From the NCBI RefSeq assembly GCF_009731355.2, contig NZ_AP022810.1:248001-312000 (forward strand): DNA of 64,000 nt, given 5' to 3'. Shown here one piece after another: positions 8,483 through 15,585 of the stretch. Position numbers and translations under genes: made by a program. A model generated the notes under the pieces. It ran no database searches. It was not told the DNA's origin and worked only from the letters and a program-made list of their open reading frames with translations. Each line of letters begins with the position of its first letter. Positions within the stretch are counted from its first letter, which is position 1. The DNA comes from Desulfuromonas sp. AOP6 (GTDB lineage Bacteria; Desulfobacterota; Desulfuromonadia; Desulfuromonadales; SZUA-540).

Positions 8483-8522
8483 ACGCGGGCGCTTTTAATC
8501 GTACATGAAAGGAGAGTTGCTT

Positions 8523-8720
8523 TTGGAGATCAAGGTCATTGACGGCAATCTGGTCAAAGCCATGAAAGTCATGAAGCGCAAACTTCAGCAGGAAGGCTTG
8601 TTTCGCGACATGAAAGCCCAACGCTTTTATGAGAAACCCAGCGTCAAGCGCAAGCGCAAGCAGAAAGAAGCTCTGCGGCGCGAGCGCAAGCGCCTGAGTA
8701 AGCTGAAGCGTTTTTATTGA
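8523..8720 (+). CDS. rpsU: 30S ribosomal protein S21
   Basis: A 65-residue protein reading LEIKVIDGNLVKAMKVMK at its N-terminus, with the S21 core LQQEGLFRDMKA and a very basic KRKRKQKEALRRERKR tail. S21 joins the small subunit late and helps in translation initiation. The start is taken as the TTG at 8523. GGAG lies 8 bases upstream, and starting there gives the usual short S21 N-terminus; the in-frame ATG at 8505 overlaps the Shine-Dalgarno sequence itself. The gene's own transcription terminator appears to have been split by the mobile element that begins at 8756. Confidence 0.95.
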   Translation: MEIKVIDGNLVKAMKVMKRKLQQEGLFRDMKAQRFYEKPSVKRKRKQKEALRRERKRLSKLKRFY

Positions 8721-8732
8721 ACCTGCACAACC

Positions 8733-8755
8733 AAAAGGGAGGGCCGTTGCCAGCG
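8733..8755 (+). terminator. Left half of the disrupted rpsU terminator
   Basis: AAAAGGGAGGGCCG (8733-8746) is the 5' arm. Its 3' partner CGGCGCTCCCTTTTTT now lies at 15558-15573, beyond the inserted element. Joined through the shared TTGCCAGCG, the two arms rebuild a hairpin of 5 + 4 bp around one mismatch, with loop TTGCCAG and a T6 tail, just behind rpsU. Confidence 0.75.
8747..8755 (+). repeat. 9-bp target-site duplication, left copy
   Basis: TTGCCAGCG, identical and in the same orientation as 15551-15559. Each copy touches the outer end of a 43-bp inverted repeat, as expected for duplication on transposition. Confidence 0.85.
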
Positions 8756-8798
8756 CTAGCCAGTAGTTTTATGAGTGGATAGATTTTGTACCACTAGA
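8756..8798 (+). repeat. Terminal inverted repeat, left (43 bp)
   Basis: Begins CTAGCCAGTAGTTTTATGAG and ends TGTACCACTAGA. It is the reverse complement of 15508-15550 except at 8786 (T here, A in the other copy). The near identity suggests recent insertion or selection on the ends. Confidence 0.93.
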
Positions 8799-8811
8799 AA
8801 TTTAAAACCCA

Positions 8812-9459
8812 TTGTTGGTACAAGTGTTGGTAGTAATCTGTTCTTCATGTGGAAATATACACAAAAACGATACTTTAAAACGGTTTTCGATTCCCGCCAC
8901 CGAAACCATCAGACCCTGGGGTGAGCCGGAAAGGGAATGGCCCATTTATGGGGTCAACAACAAGGAAGGCGTTTTTCTGAGTTCCATTCAGTTTGGTAAG
9001 GAGTTTAACGCGCCTTACAAGAAAATCGAAAAAGGATGGTTCTTTCATAACCCCACACGCGCCAATGTCGGTTCCCTCGGCATCGTGCCCGAGGTGCCAT
9101 CGGATGCGATCACCAGCCCCGAATATCAGGTGTGGAGGCTAAGAGGTGGTTTTCTGCCTGAGTTTATGGCGCTTATGCTGAGAACGGATTTCTTCCTTGC
9201 ATTGGTGGCTTTCAACCGCGTTGGCGGCGTTAAGAAGCGGATGTACTACGCGAATCTGGCCGAAATCAGGCTTCCAGAAATTCCGACGGAGGTGCAAAAA
9301 AACTTTGCCGACCGGCGAGGAGAGATCCTGGCAAACATCAAAGAGGCCAATGAAAGACTGGACCACCGGAAAAAAAGAAAGATGACGTTCTTGCCATCCA
9401 GGACACCGGTCAAAACGAGATGGGTCATGGGGGAATCGGGAGTGGCACCGTGCCAATGA
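8812..9459 (+). pseudogene. Type I restriction specificity subunit (HsdS) remnant
   Basis: From about residue 28 the frame resembles an HsdS target-recognition domain: WPIYGVNNKEGVFLS, WFFHNPTRANVGSLGIVP, ITSPEYQVWRL and RVGGVKKRMYYANLAEIRLP, ending with a helical segment to about residue 190. HsdS tells a type I restriction-modification complex which DNA site to bind. Only one recognition domain is left, the N-terminus is cut close to the left inverted repeat, and there is no hsdM or hsdR. After an A-rich run near 9370-9381 the frame reads through the antisense of the neighbouring cupin gene, so the last 25 or so residues are unrelated. Almost certainly non-functional. Confidence 0.8.
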
Positions 9460-9824
9460 TCGATGTCAGGTGGACACCAGACAGCATCCCCGGTCTTAAT
9501 GGTCACGACTTTTCCATCCCGTGTCCCGGTTAGTCCAACTCCAGAGGTAACGACCATGTGCTGCCCGGCAGGATGGAGGTGCCAGTTGGTTCTGGCTCCC
9601 GGTTGAAAGGTGACATAGGCCCCGGAATAATGGGCGGTCTCGTTAGAAGGGAACAGCATGTCGACCTGAACTTCTCCTGTGAACAGGTTTTCAGGGCCTG
9701 CAACCGATTTCTGTGTCCCCGCCGCAAAAAGTTCCTGAGTAGGGTTGGCGGCAAGGGCAGGGCTAGACAGCGCTACCGAAGAAAGAAGCAGGCAAGTGGC
9801 CAAAAAACTTGATACGTATTTCAT
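9246..9824 (-). pseudogene. Exported cupin protein, 3' end replaced
   Basis: A secreted single-domain cupin. A signal peptide (about residues 1-25, ending SSPALA) precedes the metal-binding beta barrel with WHLHPAGQH and a C-terminal H in DIDHWHGATP. Homology stops after GVLDGKNV near 9385. The natural C-terminus of about ten residues, judged from the neighbouring paralogue, is lost, and the frame continues about 45 residues through antisense hsdS sequence to 9246. The start at 9824 follows TGGAGATTACA. It is the second gene after the cupin at 9869-10231. A folded barrel may still form, so loss of function is not certain. Confidence 0.7.
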
Positions 9825-9868
9825 TGTAATCTCCATTATTTGTATTGTTCGTCGCTGACATGCTCCAG

Positions 9869-10231
9869 TCACTCAACGGATGAGCCATCGACCTTTTCTT
9901 GGATGGCGATGTGTGTCATGGCTGTCGTGGGAGAAGCGCCGTGCCAATGCTTTTCGCCGGGTGGGAACCAGACAACGTCCCCCGGGCGAATTTCCTCTAC
10001 AGGTCCGCCGTCGCGTTGCGCCCGTCCACAACCTGAGACAACGATAAGGGTTTGCCCGGCAGGATGGGTGTGCCATGCAGTCCTGCCACCCGGTTCGAAA
10101 GTCACGGTAGCGCCCGTTGCACGTGATGGATCTTCCGCCTCCAGAAAAAGGGGGTCGATCCGAACTGTGCCGGTAAACCATTCTGCTGGGCCCTTGATCG
10201 AGGGCTGTGTTCCATTTCGTTTTATTTCCAT
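9869..10231 (-). CDS. Cytoplasmic cupin-domain protein with early stop
   Basis: A 120-residue cupin. The metal site is visible as AWHTHPAGQ (motif 1) and [10 protein letters not shown] (motif 2). Small cupins of this kind accompany aldehyde and oxidoreductase genes; a few are hydroxynitrile lyases, but the substrate here is unknown. Translation stops at a TGA just where the family has Trp. Reading through would add LEHVSDEQYK and end at TAA 9836, directly overlapping the next gene's start region. So either the protein lost its last 10 or so residues by a TGG to TGA change, or it tolerates the loss. The start at 10231 has GAAAGGACAGTGAAG in front. Divergent from the AraC gene. Confidence 0.75.
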
Positions 10232-10356
10232 CTTCACTGTCCTTTCATGGCTCTCTAGGGGTGTTTCTTGAAACGCCGAAGCCTGTGTCATTGTTTACGT
10301 AGATATTACCCGTCACAACAAAAGCCAGATAGACAATTCCTCTCGACTTATTGCCT

Positions 10357-10367
10357 ATTCCTGCAAT
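10357..10367 (-). promoter_or_regulatory. Candidate AraC/YqhC-type operator upstream of the cupin genes
   Basis: On the minus strand this reads ATTGCAGGAAT, close to ATTGTAGGATT before the alcohol dehydrogenase gene (11491-11501). It is shared by the two divergently arranged targets of the probable regulator. Support is the two-site match only. Confidence 0.3.
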
Positions 10368-10381
10368 ATCGATATTTTTTC

Positions 10382-10410
10382 TTCAGCTATTATATTATTG
10401 ATGATATAGT
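10382..10410 (+). promoter_or_regulatory. Probable promoter of the AraC regulator gene
   Basis: TTCAGC (10382-10387), 17 bp of AT-rich spacer, TATAGT (10405-10410). The gene starts at 10439 behind CGGAGGAAACAC. Confidence 0.55.
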
Positions 10411-10438
10411 TCTGGTAATTAGATCTCGGAGGAAACAC

Positions 10439-11383
10439 ATGAAAAAGCAAGCAATTAACAATAGTAGCGCCATTGAAGGCAGGGGTCATGGTCATGGTTC
10501 TCTGCTTGGCGATATTGCACGATGGACCAATGATTGCGATGTGCTGGACACCAAAATACCGGGCTTGTCCTTTTATCGCTACAGTGGGCCAACAGAGCCA
10601 AGCTACGGCCTATATGAGCCGAGCATTTGCCTGGTCGCGCAGGGAGCGAAGAGGGTCCACTTGGAAGGCGAGTCGTTTATCTACGATGCCAACAACTACC
10701 TTCTCGCCTCAGTACATCTTCCAACGACGTACCAGGTCATTTCAGCTAGCCCCGAAGAGCCATTCTTGGGCCTGGTATTGAAATTCGACATGAAGGAGTT
10801 GTCGCAGTTGATGATCGACAGCAATCTTCCCTCAACCGGTAACAAGCAAATCGAAAGAGGGATTGCCACCAGCGAAGTCACACTGCCCCTGCTTAGCGCC
10901 TTCGAGAGACTCGTCAAGTTGCTCGATGAACCCGAGAGCATTCCCATTCTTGCGCCAATGATCCACAGGGAAATACTCTTTCGCCTGCTCACAGGGGAGC
11001 AAGGGGCGCGACTTCGCAAGATTGCATCGGCAGGAAGCAGGAGCCATCAAGTTGCTCGTGCGATTGATTGGCTTAAGGGGAACTTCTCGCAGCAGTTACG
11101 CGTAGAGGATTTGGCGGATATGGCAAACATGAGCCCGTCCAGCTTCCATAGCCACTTCAGGTCAATGACCTCCTTGAGCCCGCTTCAGTATCAGAAGCAT
11201 CTTCGTCTGCAAGAAGCGCGACGTTTAATGCTTGCCGAAAATCTTGATGCGACGAATGCTGCCTTCCGGGTCGGCTACGAGAGTTCATCGCAGTTCAGTC
11301 GCGAGTACGGTAGACTCTTTGGGGCACCGCCGCTGCGCGATGTATCCCAATTGCGTCAAGAGGCTGTGGGGGCTCTTAACTGA
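10439..11383 (+). CDS. AraC-family regulator, YqhC-like
   Basis: A 314-residue transcription factor. The N-terminal AraC_N-type cupin fold spans about residues 35-190 (YEPSICLVAQGAKRVHLEG). Two C-terminal helix-turn-helix units follow (about residues 215-305), with VEDLADMANMSPSSFHSHF and the second-helix signature AAFRVGYESSSQFSREYGRL. E. coli YqhC has the same architecture and activates the aldehyde reductase gene yqhD; here a YqhD-like dehydrogenase is the next gene, so the same job is likely. The start at 10439 follows a strong AGGAGG-type site; a longer frame to 10268 has none. It is divergent from the cupin pair and ends in its own terminator. Confidence 0.85.
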   Translation: MKKQAINNSSAIEGRGHGHGSLLGDIARWTNDCDVLDTKIPGLSFYRYSGPTEPSYGLYEPSICLVAQGAKRVHLEGESFIYDANNYLLASVHLPTTYQVISASPEEPFLGLVLKFDMKELSQLMIDSNLPSTGNKQIERGIATSEVTLPLLSAFERLVKLLDEPESIPILAPMIHREILFRLLTGEQGARLRKIASAGSRSHQVARAIDWLKGNFSQQLRVEDLADMANMSPSSFHSHFRSMTSLSPLQYQKHLRLQEARRLMLAENLDATNAAFRVGYESSSQFSREYGRLFGAPPLRDVSQLRQEAVGALN

Positions 11384-11431
11384 CAGCATTCCTAGACCTC
11401 TGACCGACCACAACTATATGCTCACTCCTGA

Positions 11432-11458
11432 TGGGGTGGCCCTCTTTGGGCCACCCCA
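11432..11458 (+). terminator. Terminator after the AraC gene
   Basis: TGGGGTGGCCC (11432-11442) pairs perfectly with GGGCCACCCCA (11448-11458) around a 5-nt TCTTT loop. Only a short T-rich tail follows (TATTCGTTT). Confidence 0.8.
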
Positions 11459-11490
11459 TATTCGTTTAAAAATTACATAAAACGGATCCG

Positions 11491-11501
11491 ATTGTAGGAT
11501 T
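11491..11501 (+). promoter_or_regulatory. Candidate AraC/YqhC-type operator upstream of the alcohol dehydrogenase
   Basis: ATTGTAGGATT, followed at 20 bp by GATTGAATAGG (11509-11519) in direct orientation, as AraC half-sites often are. It resembles the element before the cupin genes. Low certainty. Confidence 0.3.
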
Positions 11502-11593
11502 GTGCAAAGATTGAATAGGTCTATGTATTTTATATTATCTCCTAAGTGTTTAATATGGCATCAACAAATAAGAAAAACGACAAGGAGACTCAA

Positions 11594-12745
11594 ATGCAAG
11601 ATTTCACTTTTTTCAACCCCACAAGAATCGAATTCGGCAAAGGGAAAGAAGCTAATATCGGACAATACGCCAAAGACTTTGGTGTCGGCAGCGTTCTGGT
11701 TCTCTACGGATCTGAGCGGATCAAAAAGGATGGACTCTATGGACGCGTTACCGCATCACTCGATGAGCAAGGCATCAGCTATAGTGCTCTGGGAGGCGTC
11801 ATCAGCAACCCGGTGATCAGCAAGGTCCGCGAGGCGGTCAAGGTCGTCAAAGAGAACAACCTGCAAGGCATTGTTGCCGTCGGTGGCGGATCGGTAGCCG
11901 ACTCAGCCAAGGCCATTGCCGCTGGAGCCAAGTATGACGGCGACGTCTGGGATTTCTTCATCGGTAAGGCCGTCGTCGAAGACGCCATCCCCGTTTTCAC
12001 CATCATGACTCTGGCCGCTACTGGCAGCGAAATGAATCCCTACGGCGTCGTGACCAACGAAGAAACTCAGCAAAAGTACAACCTCGGCGGACCTTCGCTC
12101 TTCCCGAAGGTGTCAGTCATCAACCCTGAGCTGATGGCCACTGTCACCCCGGACTACCTGGCATACTCGGCGGTCGACATTTTCGCCCACTGCCTCGACC
12201 TGTATTTTACCGCCAAGGTATTCCCGGAATTCACCGCCGCCTTGATCGAAAATATCTTGGAAACCGTCATGCGCACCACCAGCGTGTTGATGAAAAACCC
12301 CGCCGATTATGATGCGCGAGCAGAGTTTGCGTGGGCCTCCACAATGGCTCTAAATGGAAACACCTTTGTCGGTGTTGCAGACAACTCTTTTGATACACAC
12401 ATAATTGAGCATGCGATGGGCGGACTATACAACGTGCCCCATGGGGCCGGTCTCGCCGTCGTCCTTCCTGCATGGATGAAGTCGATCAAAGATCAGATGC
12501 CGGAACGCTTTGAGCGTTTCGCAGAGAAGATGTTTGGTGAATCTGATGCAGATGCCGGTATCGCTAAACTGACCGAATGGTTCAGCGCTATCGGTGCCCC
12601 GGTGACCTTCGCGCAAGCAGGGCTTGCTGCGGATGCCGTTGATCCCATCGCTGAAAATGCTTTCGGCATCGCGAAGCTCTGGGGCATGGACCAGCTTTAT
12701 CCCCAGCAGAGGATTGCTGAAATTCTCAAGTTAGCTGTGAAGTAA
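11594..12745 (+). CDS. Iron-type alcohol dehydrogenase, YqhD/BdhA-like aldehyde reductase
   Basis: A 383-residue group III dehydrogenase. It opens DFTFFNPTRIEFGKG as YqhD/butanol dehydrogenases do. The nucleotide site is VAVGGGSVADSAKAI, and the metal ligands are Asp and His in YSAVDIFAHCLD, then His in IEHAMGG and VPHGAGLA. Family enzymes use NADPH to reduce short and reactive aldehydes to alcohols in the cytoplasm. A normal start lies at 11594 behind CAAGGAGACTCAA. With the YqhC-like regulator upstream it forms the core of an aldehyde-response module in the mobile element. The exported hydrolase gene follows by 21 bp. Confidence 0.9.
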   Translation: MQDFTFFNPTRIEFGKGKEANIGQYAKDFGVGSVLVLYGSERIKKDGLYGRVTASLDEQGISYSALGGVISNPVISKVREAVKVVKENNLQGIVAVGGGSVADSAKAIAAGAKYDGDVWDFFIGKAVVEDAIPVFTIMTLAATGSEMNPYGVVTNEETQQKYNLGGPSLFPKVSVINPELMATVTPDYLAYSAVDIFAHCLDLYFTAKVFPEFTAALIENILETVMRTTSVLMKNPADYDARAEFAWASTMALNGNTFVGVADNSFDTHIIEHAMGGLYNVPHGAGLAVVLPAWMKSIKDQMPERFERFAEKMFGESDADAGIAKLTEWFSAIGAPVTFAQAGLAADAVDPIAENAFGIAKLWGMDQLYPQQRIAEILKLAVK

Positions 12746-12766
12746 CGAACTGAAAGGGGTTCTTAG

Positions 12767-13807
12767 ATGAAAACATATCTTACAAAAAAACTTACGACCC
12801 TATTTTTGTGCATGGCCATGACCCTGCCTGGCCTGGCTCTCGCTGACAACAATGGGTGGGACAAGACGTTTGCCAAAAGCGATAAAGTAGACCACGAAAA
12901 GGTCTCCTACAAAAACCGCTTTGGAATCACCGTTTCTGCCGACAAGTATTTGCCGAAGGGCCTCGACAAATCCAAGAAACATCCCGCTATCGTCATTGGC
13001 ACCCCCTATGGAGGAGTCAAGGAGCAGGGTGCTGGCATCTACGCTCAAACTATTGCAGAGAGAGGCTTTGTAACGATTGCCTTCGACGAATCCTACAATG
13101 GCGAGAGCGGAGGTCAACCGAGACGAGTTTCCTCGCCCGACATCTTTGTAGAAGACTTCAGTGCAGGCGTTGACTACTTAGGCACACTTCCGTTTGTTGA
13201 CCGAAACAAGATCGGCGCGATCGGTCTGTGCGGCAGCGGTGCCTTCGCCGTTACTGCGGCCCAGGTTGACCATCGAATCAAGGCGGTTGCCACTGCAAGC
13301 ATGTACGATATGAGCCGCTTTATGCTCAAGGGCTGGAAAGATTCGATGACTGATGAGCAGAGAAATCAAACTCTCGAACAACTTGCCGAACAGCGCTGGA
13401 AAGACGTTGATAGCGGATCGCCCGAATTGACTCCGGCCTTCCCGAGCGAACCGGCCAAAACTATTCCGGAGGGCCTCGATCCGATTACTAGCGAGTTCTT
13501 TGAGTACTACGCCATGGAACGTGGGCACCACCCGAACTCCATCGCAGCGTTCACCAAGACGAGCGCCATGTCTTTTATGAACTTTCCTCTGATGGACCAG
13601 ATCAAGTCGATCTCCCCGCGTCCCATTCTATTCATCATGGGCGAAAACGCCCACTCTCGGTACTTCACCGAAGATGCATACGAAATGGCCGCAGAGCCGA
13701 AAGAGCTTTATATTGTCCCCGGGGCACGCCACATTGATCTGTACGACGATGTTAAACTGATCCCATTCGACAAGCTCACATCCTTTTTCAGCAAATATCT
13801 GAAATAA
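12767..13807 (+). CDS. Exported alpha/beta hydrolase with Cys nucleophile
   Basis: A 346-residue protein with a signal peptide (about residues 1-26, ending LPGLALA). The fold is an alpha/beta hydrolase with oxyanion region VIGTPYGGVKEQG. The nucleophile elbow reads GLCGSG, placing Cys where most relatives have Ser, as in dienelactone hydrolase. Later acid and base candidates are in IMGENAHSRY and PGARHIDLYDD. Related proteins are called YcjY-like or dienelactone hydrolase-like; the substrate is unknown. GAAAGGGG lies before the ATG. It is probably cotranscribed with the alcohol dehydrogenase, since a strong terminator follows this gene and none lies between. Confidence 0.8.
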   Translation: MKTYLTKKLTTLFLCMAMTLPGLALADNNGWDKTFAKSDKVDHEKVSYKNRFGITVSADKYLPKGLDKSKKHPAIVIGTPYGGVKEQGAGIYAQTIAERGFVTIAFDESYNGESGGQPRRVSSPDIFVEDFSAGVDYLGTLPFVDRNKIGAIGLCGSGAFAVTAAQVDHRIKAVATASMYDMSRFMLKGWKDSMTDEQRNQTLEQLAEQRWKDVDSGSPELTPAFPSEPAKTIPEGLDPITSEFFEYYAMERGHHPNSIAAFTKTSAMSFMNFPLMDQIKSISPRPILFIMGENAHSRYFTEDAYEMAAEPKELYIVPGARHIDLYDDVKLIPFDKLTSFFSKYLK

Positions 13808-13836
13808 AGTAATCAGCACCCCCTGAGATTCACAAT

Positions 13837-13867
13837 GTGTGGCCTGTTTAACGGGCCACACTTTTTT
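13837..13867 (+). terminator. Terminator after the hydrolase gene
   Basis: GTGTGGCC (13837-13844) pairs with GGCCACAC (13854-13861), followed by T6. A textbook intrinsic terminator that closes the dehydrogenase-hydrolase unit. Confidence 0.92.
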
Positions 13868-13904
13868 ACTCACCTTCAGCATGGTATGCCCCCCTTAAAT
13901 TCAC

Positions 13905-13934
13905 TTGACTCAGAAGTATGGTTGCATGTACAAC
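13905..13934 (+). promoter_or_regulatory. marR promoter overlapped by its operator
   Basis: TTGACT (13905-13910), 16 bp, TGTACA (13927-13932). The inverted repeat GTTGCATGTACAAC (13921-13934) covers the -10 box. The same operator stands before the DUF169 gene. The start codon is at 13941 with no ribosome site, so the mRNA may be leaderless. Confidence 0.65.
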
Positions 13935-13940
13935 TAAAAT

Positions 13941-14390
13941 ATGACTTTTTCTTATGACCACAATCAATCACTTGGATACTTGACTGGCATTGCAAGCAGA
14001 ATGCTTAACAACACGCTTGCCGCGAGACTTAAGGCTTCGGGTATCGACATGACATCCGAACAATGGGGAGCCATCATCATACTTCTTAACGAGGGGGCTA
14101 TGTCTCAGGGGCATCTTGGGGAGAGGCTTCACCTTGAGAAGTCAAGCGTGAGTCGGCTAACGAATGGACTTGAAAAGCGTGGCTGGATTGAACGGACCAA
14201 AGACTCAAAAGATAGTAGGCAGCGGCTAGTAGAGCCGACGCCAAAAGCCCTAGAAACGGCAGAGCAGTGCGCGATCATTGCTAGGTCTATCCACGAAGAG
14301 GCGCAACTCGGCATGAACGAGAGTGAGATGATTGCTTCAAGGTCGCTCTTAACGAAGATCATAAAGAACCTGGAGGGGGCGTCAAAGTAA
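13941..14390 (+). CDS. MarR-family transcriptional regulator
   Basis: A 149-residue winged-helix dimer-forming regulator. The DNA-binding part runs from about residue 35 to 100: QGHLGERLHLEKSSVSRLTNGLEKRGWIERT, then the wing DSKDSRQRLVEPT. MarR proteins usually repress their own and a neighbouring gene and release DNA on binding small phenolic or electrophilic compounds, or on Cys oxidation. The same 14-bp operator before this gene and before DUF169 identifies both as targets. No Shine-Dalgarno sequence precedes the ATG. Confidence 0.9.
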   Translation: MTFSYDHNQSLGYLTGIASRMLNNTLAARLKASGIDMTSEQWGAIIILLNEGAMSQGHLGERLHLEKSSVSRLTNGLEKRGWIERTKDSKDSRQRLVEPTPKALETAEQCAIIARSIHEEAQLGMNESEMIASRSLLTKIIKNLEGASK

Positions 14391-14417
14391 GAAGCATCGA
14401 TTAATGTTAACGAATTA

Positions 14418-14431
14418 GTTGCATATACAAC
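14418..14431 (+). promoter_or_regulatory. MarR operator upstream of the DUF169 gene
   Basis: GTTGCATATACAAC, a perfect inverted repeat apart from the centre and 13 of 14 bases identical to 13921-13934. It contains TATACA as a probable -10, with TTAATG 17 bp upstream as a weak -35. Confidence 0.7.
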
Positions 14432-14504
14432 GTGATTGAAGGCATCACCAAATGTGCTGCACCTTCTCTCTTTGCATATGCTATCAACAACAAGGAGAAA
14501 CACT

Positions 14505-15344
14505 ATGATTGAACAATCAATACTTGAAGACACTAAAACTTTACTCGGATATATCGGCTTGGATGAAGAGCCGATCGGGGTTTATTACGCGGACACAAAG
14601 CCAGATCATGCCTTTGGACCCAAGCTTGGACCGCCCATTACGCGCGAACTAGAAGAACAGGGCCAGATTGACATGCAGGCGGTGTTTCAACATTTTTCAT
14701 GCGTTATTGGCAACATCTGGCTAGCAAGGAAGAAGAAGGGAACCGCCTATATCTCGACAGAAGAATACGGATGTCCCGGAGGTTCTTTCTATTGCTCCAT
14801 GATGAAACCAAACCTTCGCTTCATTGAGCACTACGTGACCACGGGCTTCGAAGGAACCCCGATTCATGGTGAACGATACCTGCCTTCCCCGGAAGCCATG
14901 AGAAAATTTCTCGAAAAGGTCGACCCTCGTGAGGCCCCGGCTAAATACTGCCTCTTCAAGCCCCTGTCGCTCTTTACTGACAATGAAGTGCCAGAGTTCG
15001 TGATCTTCTTCGCGCGCCCCGAAGTTCTGAGCGGCCTCTTCACCCACACCACTTTCACCACTGGAGAGGTTGACAGCATCGTGTCTCCATTCGGCGCAGG
15101 GTGCACCAACGTTGTAGGTTGGCCTCTCCACTACCAGGAAAAGGGACAGGAAAAAGCCGTACTCGGAGGCTTTGACCCATCAGCTCGCAAGTACATGAAG
15201 ACCGATGAATTGACCTTCACAGTCCCCTGGTCTCTGTATCAGAAAATGCTGAAAGCTTTGCCCGAATCAGTATTCTGCGTGGACGGAGAGTGGAAGACGG
15301 TGCGGAAAAAGATTAATCGAAGTGCAAAGACCTGGGGTGAATAA
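14505..15344 (+). CDS. DUF169 family protein
   Basis: A 279-residue protein of the DUF169 family, common in anaerobes and archaea and of unknown function. It begins SILEDTKTLLGYIGLDEEPIGVYY. Conserved Cys residues occur in FSCVIGN, YGCPGGSFYC, YCLFKP and GAGCTNVVG, which could hold a cofactor or metal. No signal peptide or membrane helix, so cytoplasmic. The start at 14505 follows CAAGGAGAAACACT. It is the last gene of the mobile element, controlled by the MarR operator 74 bp upstream and closed by a strong terminator. Its use together with MarR suggests a role in the same chemical-stress response, by inference only. Confidence 0.85.
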   Translation: MIEQSILEDTKTLLGYIGLDEEPIGVYYADTKPDHAFGPKLGPPITRELEEQGQIDMQAVFQHFSCVIGNIWLARKKKGTAYISTEEYGCPGGSFYCSMMKPNLRFIEHYVTTGFEGTPIHGERYLPSPEAMRKFLEKVDPREAPAKYCLFKPLSLFTDNEVPEFVIFFARPEVLSGLFTHTTFTTGEVDSIVSPFGAGCTNVVGWPLHYQEKGQEKAVLGGFDPSARKYMKTDELTFTVPWSLYQKMLKALPESVFCVDGEWKTVRKKINRSAKTWGE

Positions 15345-15364
15345 CTCTAGCTAAAACAAAGACA

Positions 15365-15398
15365 AAAGGCCGATCTCAACAACGAGATCGGCCTTTTT
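15365..15398 (+). terminator. Terminator after the DUF169 gene
   Basis: AAAGGCCGATCTC and GAGATCGGCCTTT form a 13-bp perfect stem with a 6-nt loop and a T tail. It works on either strand. Confidence 0.95.
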
Positions 15399-15432
15399 AG
15401 TCTTCAAGAGGCTATCAATAATAGCCAAGACT
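15399..15432 (+). other. Bulged hairpin near the right end of the element
   Basis: AGTCTT/AAGACT and GGCTAT/ATAGCC form two stacked 6-bp stems with a 5-nt one-sided bulge and a 5-nt loop, directly behind the terminator. An 11-bp AGATTATGTAC at 15443-15453 is inverted relative to 15515-15525 inside the right terminal repeat. These may be subterminal binding or folding signals for the element. No coding sequence lies in 15398-15507. Confidence 0.45.
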
Positions 15433-15507
15433 CAAAAACACCAGATTATGTACACCCCTTGAAGGCAAACATGAGGGCGTTTTTCATAAAAGGGAGAAGA
15501 CACAATA

Positions 15508-15550
15508 TCTAGTGGTACATAATCTATCCACTCATAAAACTACTGGCTAG
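15508..15550 (-). repeat. Terminal inverted repeat, right (43 bp)
   Basis: Reverse complement of 8756-8798 with one difference. The outermost bases are CTAG on both ends. Confidence 0.93.
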
Positions 15551-15559
15551 TTGCCAGCG
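15551..15559 (+). repeat. 9-bp target-site duplication, right copy
   Basis: TTGCCAGCG directly after the right inverted repeat, matching 8747-8755. Confidence 0.85.
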
Positions 15560-15573
15560 GCGCTCCCTTTTTT
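15558..15573 (+). terminator. Right half of the disrupted rpsU terminator
   Basis: CGGCGCTCCCTTTTTT is complementary to AAAAGGGAGGGCCG at 8733-8746 with one mismatch. On its own it cannot form the hairpin. Confidence 0.7.
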
Positions 15574-15585
15574 GTACCCTGCTAG

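Follow-up and report, generated by a model that had tools for sequence, protein, structure and literature searches.

A probable mobile-insertion-cassette-like element in the rpsU terminator of Desulfuromonas sp. AOP6

Insertion site at rpsU

Here, we analyzed a 64,000-nt stretch of the Desulfuromonas sp. AOP6 genome (the whole stretch is referred to below as the window; it corresponds to G000:C1:248001-312000, G000 being the window's own genome), in which the terminator of rpsU is split by an inserted segment of 6,795 bp (8756-15550). This segment is bounded by long, almost identical inverted repeats (IRs), encloses a cluster of stress and metabolism genes, and is probably a non-autonomous transposon resembling a mobile insertion cassette. 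The features that define the insertion site are as follows (window coordinates, with the evidence in parentheses):

8505-8720, (+) strand: rpsU (30S ribosomal protein S21), the host gene with the split terminator (Pfam Ribosomal_S21, 5.4e-19)
8733-8746, (+) strand: left arm of the rpsU terminator, AAAAGGGAGGGCCG (sequence; empty hairpin in the sister genome G002)
8747-8755, no strand: left copy of the 9-bp target-site duplication, TTGCCAGCG (sequence)
8756-8802, (+) strand: left terminal IR of the outer element (45/47 to the right arm)
8816-8823, (+) strand: subterminal TGGTACAA, inverted partner of TTGTACCA, which lies at 8786-8793 inside the left IR (by eye)
15504-15550, (−) strand: right terminal IR of the outer element (repeat search)
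15551-15559, no strand: right copy of the 9-bp target-site duplication, TTGCCAGCG (sequence)
15560-15574, (+) strand: right arm of the rpsU terminator and T-run, GCGCTCCCTTTTTTG (sequence, fold)

The left arm of the hairpin starts 12 bases past the rpsU stop codon, at 8733, and reaches TTGCCAGCG, the 9-bp direct repeat that both outer IR tips touch without a gap. An initial annotation of this DNA had reported such a repeat at both ends, and we confirmed its copies at 8747-8755 and 15551-15559; the chance of a 9-bp match at fixed places is ~4^-9. The same annotation had described 43-bp IRs with 42 identical positions, which is correct for the first 43 bp, while the arms extend to 47 nt (8756-8802 and 15504-15550; 45/47 or 96% identical by repeat search), with mismatches at positions 31 and 44 only. 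Taking away the insert and one repeat copy yields AAAAGGGAGGGCCGTTGCCAGCGGCGCTCCCTTTTTTGT, which folds as a terminator hairpin at −24.0 kcal/mol.

Next, we turned to the relatives of the window's genome; within the genus, three genomes were compared (G000, G001, and G002). G002 carries an empty rpsU site, consisting of rpsU, AAGGGAGCGCCGCTAGCCGCGGCGTTCCCTTTTTTT, and the same downstream open reading frame (ORF), and its intact rpsU hairpin folds at −25.8 kcal/mol. Around this site, G002 is collinear with the joined window flanks at ~87% identity, over 21 and 50 kb of the two sides. The rpsU terminator that had been rebuilt on paper is therefore borne out both by its own fold and by the empty site of G002, where a look downstream of rpsU, as had been proposed, revealed the intact hairpin. 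Moreover, G002 is the one relative in which we looked for the same genes at this place without the repeats, and the emptiness of its site favors the insertion that had been postulated. The rpsU gene on contig C367 of G001 was also considered as a counterpart, and it proved to be a different locus with its own intact terminator that is uninformative for the window site.

The island has a G+C content of 50.4%, against 59.5% in the window flanks, which marks the cargo as foreign in composition. The right outer IR has a short exact inverted partner, AGATTATGTAC, just inside it (15443-15453 and 15515-15525), and together with the pair noted by eye at the left end, such subterminal partners inside both outer IRs may represent extra binding sites or may be due to chance. 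Rfam searches of the window and of loci L060, L062, and L171 returned no family.

Cargo genes, sister genomes, and the inner ends

The outer IRs enclose the following genes and features:

8872-9378, (+) strand: fragment of a type I specificity subunit (hsdS), ~150 aligned residues (tblastn to HsdS and N-6 methylase; PADLOC Specificity_I, 7.9e-21)
9246-9836, (−) strand: cupin 1, (R)-mandelonitrile-lyase-like, with its 3′ end lost to the hsdS junction (139 bits, cut-off 140; start codon by eye)
9869-10291, (−) strand: cupin 2, (R)-mandelonitrile lyase family (NF049940, 177.8 bits, cut-off 140)
10439-11383, (+) strand: AraC-family regulator with AraC_N and HTH_18 (Pfam)
11594-12745, (+) strand: iron-containing alcohol dehydrogenase (Pfam)
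12767-13807, (+) strand: alpha/beta hydrolase, dienelactone-hydrolase / S15-like (Pfam; signal-peptide-like N-terminus by eye)
13941-14390, (+) strand: MarR-family regulator (Pfam; an OhrR-like match is far under the cut-off)
14505-15344, (+) strand: DUF169 protein (PF02596, 7.3e-41)
15364-15398, (+) strand: terminator of the DUF169 gene, conserved in G001 and G002 (sequence comparison)

In agreement with the initial annotation, Pfam and NCBIfam searches of the island's eight main ORFs found no transposase, integrase, or resolvase; smaller or overlapping ORFs were outside these searches. The gene that had been called a broken hsdS is indeed a type I specificity-subunit fragment, which joins the 3′ part of cupin 1 at ~9378-9380 and replaces the last codons of the cupin gene; the G002 counterpart of this cupin keeps an unbroken 3′ end. 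No specificity family was found for the fragment in Pfam, NCBIfam, or PDB. In its best profile match, it aligns with the subunit's first half, and the plasmid genes that it matches do so with their last part. Comparison of the island DNA with plasmids gave matches in 382 records, none of which covered 80% of it, the best coverage among the matches listed being 12%.

Counting the own genome, 27 of the order's 136 genomes contain matches to the cargo DNA, and many of these matches are to single genes. G002 carries a longer, 10.8-kb version (L060, 6291-17099), with additional genes for a carboxymuconolactone decarboxylase, a cyclophilin-like protein, and a molybdopterin oxidoreductase and, by eye, a further cupin and an aldo-keto reductase. 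This element sits between uvrC (named by eye) and a lipoprotein-type gene. In G000, the flanks of the G002 element adjoin at the uvrC site, their matches lying 3 bp apart, and form an intact terminator at the junction, AAAAAAACGCCCCGGGCCAATGACGGCCGGGGCGTTTTTTT, with a fold of −34.6 kcal/mol. In G002, the 10.8-kb element parts the two arms of this uvrC-site terminator, and an 8-bp direct repeat, GACAATAA, is found at both of its edges (L060, 6283-6290 and 17100-17107). Hence, the same cargo occupies one terminator loop in G000 and a different one in G002, and the site filled in either genome is empty in the other. This extends the earlier suggestion of terminator targeting to two cases.

In G001, the cluster is located at a third place, beside glgP (named by eye). 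Between G001 and G002, the cluster is 91% (3.1 kb) and 86% (0.9 kb) identical, against 75-78% for uvrC and glgP; between G000 and G002, the main pieces of the cluster share 71-80% identity, against about 85-87% for the surroundings. Because cluster identity conflicts with core identity, the cargo must have moved laterally. It also moves independently of the 43-bp outer ends, since G002 has it elsewhere without those ends. That the cluster or parts of it are so widespread (the 27 genomes above) could be taken to mean that it is a native locus of the genus, edged by repeats that are unrelated palindromes. We regard this as highly improbable, given that the cluster lies at three different places in three members of the genus, two of them with a matching empty site, and given the same conflict of identities.

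A second kind of end was uncovered inside the outer element, close to its right IR:

15437-15459, (+) strand: right tip of the inner element, AACACCAGATTATGTACACCCCT (homology to G002 stops exactly here)
15473-15484, (+) strand: GAGGGCGTTTTT, putative right arm of a former terminator hit by the inner element (weakly inferred; no left arm was found)

The window cargo and the G002 element cease to be homologous at 15459 and at L060 17099, i.e., at the exact boundary of the G002 element, so that the right tip of the latter (AGGGATTTACTTATCCTGTTGTT read inward) persists in a diverged form inside the window element. A certain half-terminator at 15473-15484 was considered and is weakened by the palindromic nature of the inner sites. 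The last 23 bp of the inner tip (15437-15459) recur in G001 and in G019, a member of another family, where 24 of 26 bp match with an E-value of 3.3e-4 within one genome (136 genomes searched). At an E-value of 0.05, the right tip was found in 7 of the 136 genomes of the order, namely G002, G000, and G019, together with weak matches in G032, G074, G080, and G134; a matrix scan around the G074 and G080 matches revealed no inner tip. The left end of the G002 element likewise matched 7 of the 136 genomes (itself and six weak matches), and the sole weak match covering the tip, in G092, was taken as chance on inspection. Plasmids and viral contigs contained no inner tips, or one weak match at an E-value of 8.

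At the left side of the G002 element, a related sequence occurs in inverted orientation, 9-10 bp inward of the direct repeat. A plain weight-matrix scan is circular for the sites on which it was trained, and we therefore relied on a leave-one-out test, which covered three of the eight sites: in a control of ~862 kb (both strands), the left tip of G002 was equaled at two positions and the right tip at none. Other scan matches of 16 to 19.3 bits were located in L070 (two), L064, and L094. One of the L070 sites (G116:C47, ~7264 on the minus strand) resembles the inner tip weakly, at 19.3 bits, and lies downstream of the cluster as it occurs in G116.

Contig L171 of G019 (G019:C94, 3,094 bp) bears the inner tip several times. 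Here, a Fic-family gene is positioned between inverted tips and two copies of GGCAGGATCT (119-128 and 2059-2068), followed by a broken nucleotidyltransferase-type gene with AGGATCTT at 2062-2069 and 2710-2717; in 20 G019 contigs numbered next to C94 and picked blind, no tip of at least 16 bits was detected. This pattern can be read as transposase-less cassettes inserted successively at one target. As an observation in its own right, the stretch from 85 to 2720 of L171 consists of tandem cassette-like units between palindromic sites with repeated spacers (GGCAGGATCT and AGGATCTT).

Palindromes with similar loops beside such units also bring to mind a site-specific recombinase, i.e., an integron-like cassette or a tyrosine integrase, with the inner palindromes of G019 acting as attC-like sites. 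We consider this explanation unlikely: near-perfect IRs that abut a 9-bp duplication are a hallmark of transposition, the eight ORFs searched include no integrase, the core-site consensus of attC is not matched by the palindromes (compared by eye), and the repeated spacer GGCAGGATCT is itself readable as a target duplication.

Outer ends and proposed origin of the element

We searched for further copies of the 43-bp ends in collections of increasing breadth, several of which may leave out records very near the window's genome. The own genome (BLAST, and a 20-mer allowing 3 mismatches) contained nothing beyond the two known ends. The family (3 genomes) gave no second copy, with one 17-bp match in G002 (E-value of 0.05), and the order (136 genomes) gave no copy besides those of the own genome. 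Two weak matches in the phylum (395 genomes; G292 and G469) were rejected as chance, as was a 21-bp match in phages (E-value of 0.1) that lies under a PhoH-like gene. Plasmids contained none at an E-value of 1 and five matches of 23-34 bp at E-values of 0.8 to 9 in a looser search. An exact 22-mer was absent from a collection of 84,980 species; an exact 17-mer hit 10 loci in genome contigs, which proved to be chance on extension, and viral contigs had no copy, with a 16-mer giving 11 loci. When all 21 of these loci were extended against the end, none showed a full end or a partner. The 43-bp ends are orphans, and the idea of an undescribed family, for which the initial annotation had proposed looking for other copies in the own and related genomes, is without support, as no second copy appeared in any collection searched.

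Among known systems, the closest in build are mobile insertion cassettes (mics), defined as passenger gene(s) between IRs with no transposase gene (PMC3913671) and including MIC231 of Bacillus cereus as described in PMC3913671 and PMC2266710. The window element shares with them a cargo bracketed by IRs (45/47), the lack of a transposase in the eight main ORFs searched, a target duplication (here of 9 bp, with an empty site in G002), and a presumed movement in trans. In mic-qnrD of Proteeae, the ends are 24 bp long with six mismatches, the duplication is 2 bp, and no transposase-encoding gene was found (PMC3913671). By comparison, the window element has almost identical ends of 43-47 bp, a 9-bp duplication, seven cargo genes plus the hsdS fragment, no cognate insertion sequence (IS) found, a location at a terminator-loop site, and a second mobile end inside.

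Tn3-family IRs are ~38 bp long and start with GGGG, and their duplications are 5 bp; the window ends (CTAGCCAG...) and 9-bp duplication do not fit this pattern. Mosaic non-autonomous elements of that family, i.e., mobile insertion cassettes and Tn3-derived inverted-repeat miniature elements (MICs/TIMEs) of Xanthomonas (PMC6304161) and Pseudomonas (PMC4133298), are described as having long IRs and passenger genes without transposition enzymes, traits that the window element has in common with them. The IS10 subgroup of the IS4 family is characterized by 5′-CT tips, 9-bp direct repeats, a length of 1,200-1,350 bp, and a transposase with DDE and YREK motifs (PMC2266710). The window element resembles it in its 9-bp repeats and 5′-CT ends (CTAGCC at both tips), a weak likeness of two bases only, and differs in its greater length and in having no transposase among the ORFs searched, so that this likeness is a lead and not membership. 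Finally, MITEAba12/ISAba12-type elements are described as non-autonomous, with 9-bp duplications, a length of 113 bp, 16-bp imperfect ends, and no coding sequence, related elements beginning with GGCTTTGTTGC (PMC6382973); the window element is like them in being non-autonomous with a 9-bp duplication and differs in size, ends, and coding content.

Taken together, we consider it likely that the segment from 8756 to 15550 is a mobile-insertion-cassette-like non-autonomous transposon, mobilized by a transposase with a 9-bp stagger, either supplied in trans or since lost, and containing a module that was already mobile by other ends. It stands out in that its long ends are orphans, its build is layered, and its cargo has two matched insertions in terminator loops. 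Terminal ends combined with a 9-bp duplication are produced by cut-and-paste or copy-and-paste transposition through a 9-bp-stagger transposase. Accordingly shaped, the proposed course of events would be that a DDE-type transposase recognized the 43-47-bp ends, made a 9-bp staggered cut, and inserted the element at the rpsU terminator loop. This enzyme may have acted in trans or may have been encoded between the ends and lost by deletion, in which case the hsdS fragment fused to the truncated cupin at ~9378 would be the deletion scar. We read the window element as layered because the right tip of the inner element remains inside the outer repeats; the outer element may have taken up the inner cassette or may have been entered by it. 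A layered, rearranged island with the end of another element inside is an addition to the initial annotation. Of the mobile insertion cassette moved in trans that the annotation had envisaged, the likeness holds, and the movement in trans is a presumption, no matching transposase having been found in the collections searched.

Several observations weigh against the mobile-insertion-cassette-like origin. Nothing searched yielded a second copy of the ends; the transposase therefore cannot be named, and movement in trans stays hypothetical. The outer ends and the inner ends of G002 are not demonstrably related (26 to 285 of 300 shuffles aligned as high), and two mechanisms are therefore needed. 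Aligned to each other, the two ends of the G002 element score no better than shuffles (86/300), its inverted tips come entirely from the matrix scan, and the tip-like sequence on the left is separated from the direct repeat by the 9-10 bp mentioned above. A split of the glgP terminator by the G001 cluster could not be demonstrated. Lastly, none of five other G000/G002 indel junctions splits a T-tailed hairpin, one of them lying just behind one; these five were looked at in 464 kb of G000 versus 400 kb of G002 and are not a full census.

The same structure is also compatible with a decayed autonomous transposon, an account that we hold to be possible, if somewhat doubtful. On arrival, it would have carried its own transposase and perhaps restriction-modification genes as cargo; the redox cluster would then have entered near its right end, and the hsdS-cupin deletion would have removed the transposase, with no movement in trans. 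The reduction of hsdS to a fragment fused to a cupin gene that lost its last codons, the single copy with an intact target duplication, and the inner right tip inside the outer IRs are all in keeping with such decay. They are offset by the lack of a transposase-bearing relative of the outer element anywhere searched, and the order of events is unreadable from one copy, in which the missing end of hsdS is ambiguous.

Terminator loops as landing sites

To gauge how small a target terminator loops are, we counted strict terminator-like hairpin loops, which total 316 nt on one strand and 303 nt on the other within 464 kb (~0.13%); this coverage is an after-the-fact estimate by a simple hairpin rule. 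Two loop insertions are unlikely by chance, with the qualification that the count was made after the fact and concerns two cases with different ends. Since terminator loops are intergenic and palindromic, they probably serve as preferred or permissive targets, and our results suggest that they can act as landing sites for travelling gene cargo.

A coincidence or survivor bias would arise if insertions were tolerated only between genes, where terminators fill many of the gaps. This is a serious possibility, if not the one we favor. In support of it, there are only two clear cases, these have different ends, G001 is unclear, and the five junctions in 464 kb described above split no T-tailed hairpin. 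What speaks for targeting is the small fraction of DNA occupied by the loops and the fact that both insertions fall within loops and not merely near terminators.

Among the open-licence papers listed on terminator insertion and on transposase-less cassettes, titles and abstract openings contained nothing on terminator targeting by cargo elements, and the use of palindromic REP (repetitive extragenic palindromic) sequences as insertion-sequence targets has already been published (PMC1525189). A broader and rather speculative scenario, which we would not expect to hold in full, is that at least two transposase-less element kinds (one with CTAGCCAG 43-bp ends and a 9-bp duplication, the other with AGGGG-TTTAC tips and an 8-bp duplication) carry multigene stress and toxin-type cassettes in the order, prefer terminator loops, possibly by recognizing a palindrome or cruciform, and are moved in trans by a few unseen transposases.

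If loops are true targets, a block of genes can enter between two genes and break neither, which would allow a gentle spread of multigene cargo. Terminator halves that lie kilobases apart and are flanked by a short direct repeat offer a genome-wide handle on such events, and since one cargo is available at two sites, each in filled and in empty form, the targeting idea is directly testable.

Comparison of G000 and G002 also yielded a number of separate observations. A block of 31 kb (G000:C1:171384-202587) is 96% identical to G002, and its large neighboring blocks are 80-88% identical. A 0.7-kb insertion in G000 relative to G002 (G000:C1:384349-385031; L140) is located directly behind a terminator hairpin, outside the loop. 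G002 has a clean 3.2-kb insertion relative to G000 (G002:C1:1104123-1107296; L119 and L120). It lies at a small palindrome that reads CCAGCCTGCTGG in G000; a T-run is absent there, and a direct repeat is not clearly visible. A 20-kb insertion relative to G002 (G000:C1:50601-70975; L153 and L152) lies inside a comM/yifB-like gene (named by eye), part of which is repeated in and after the insert.

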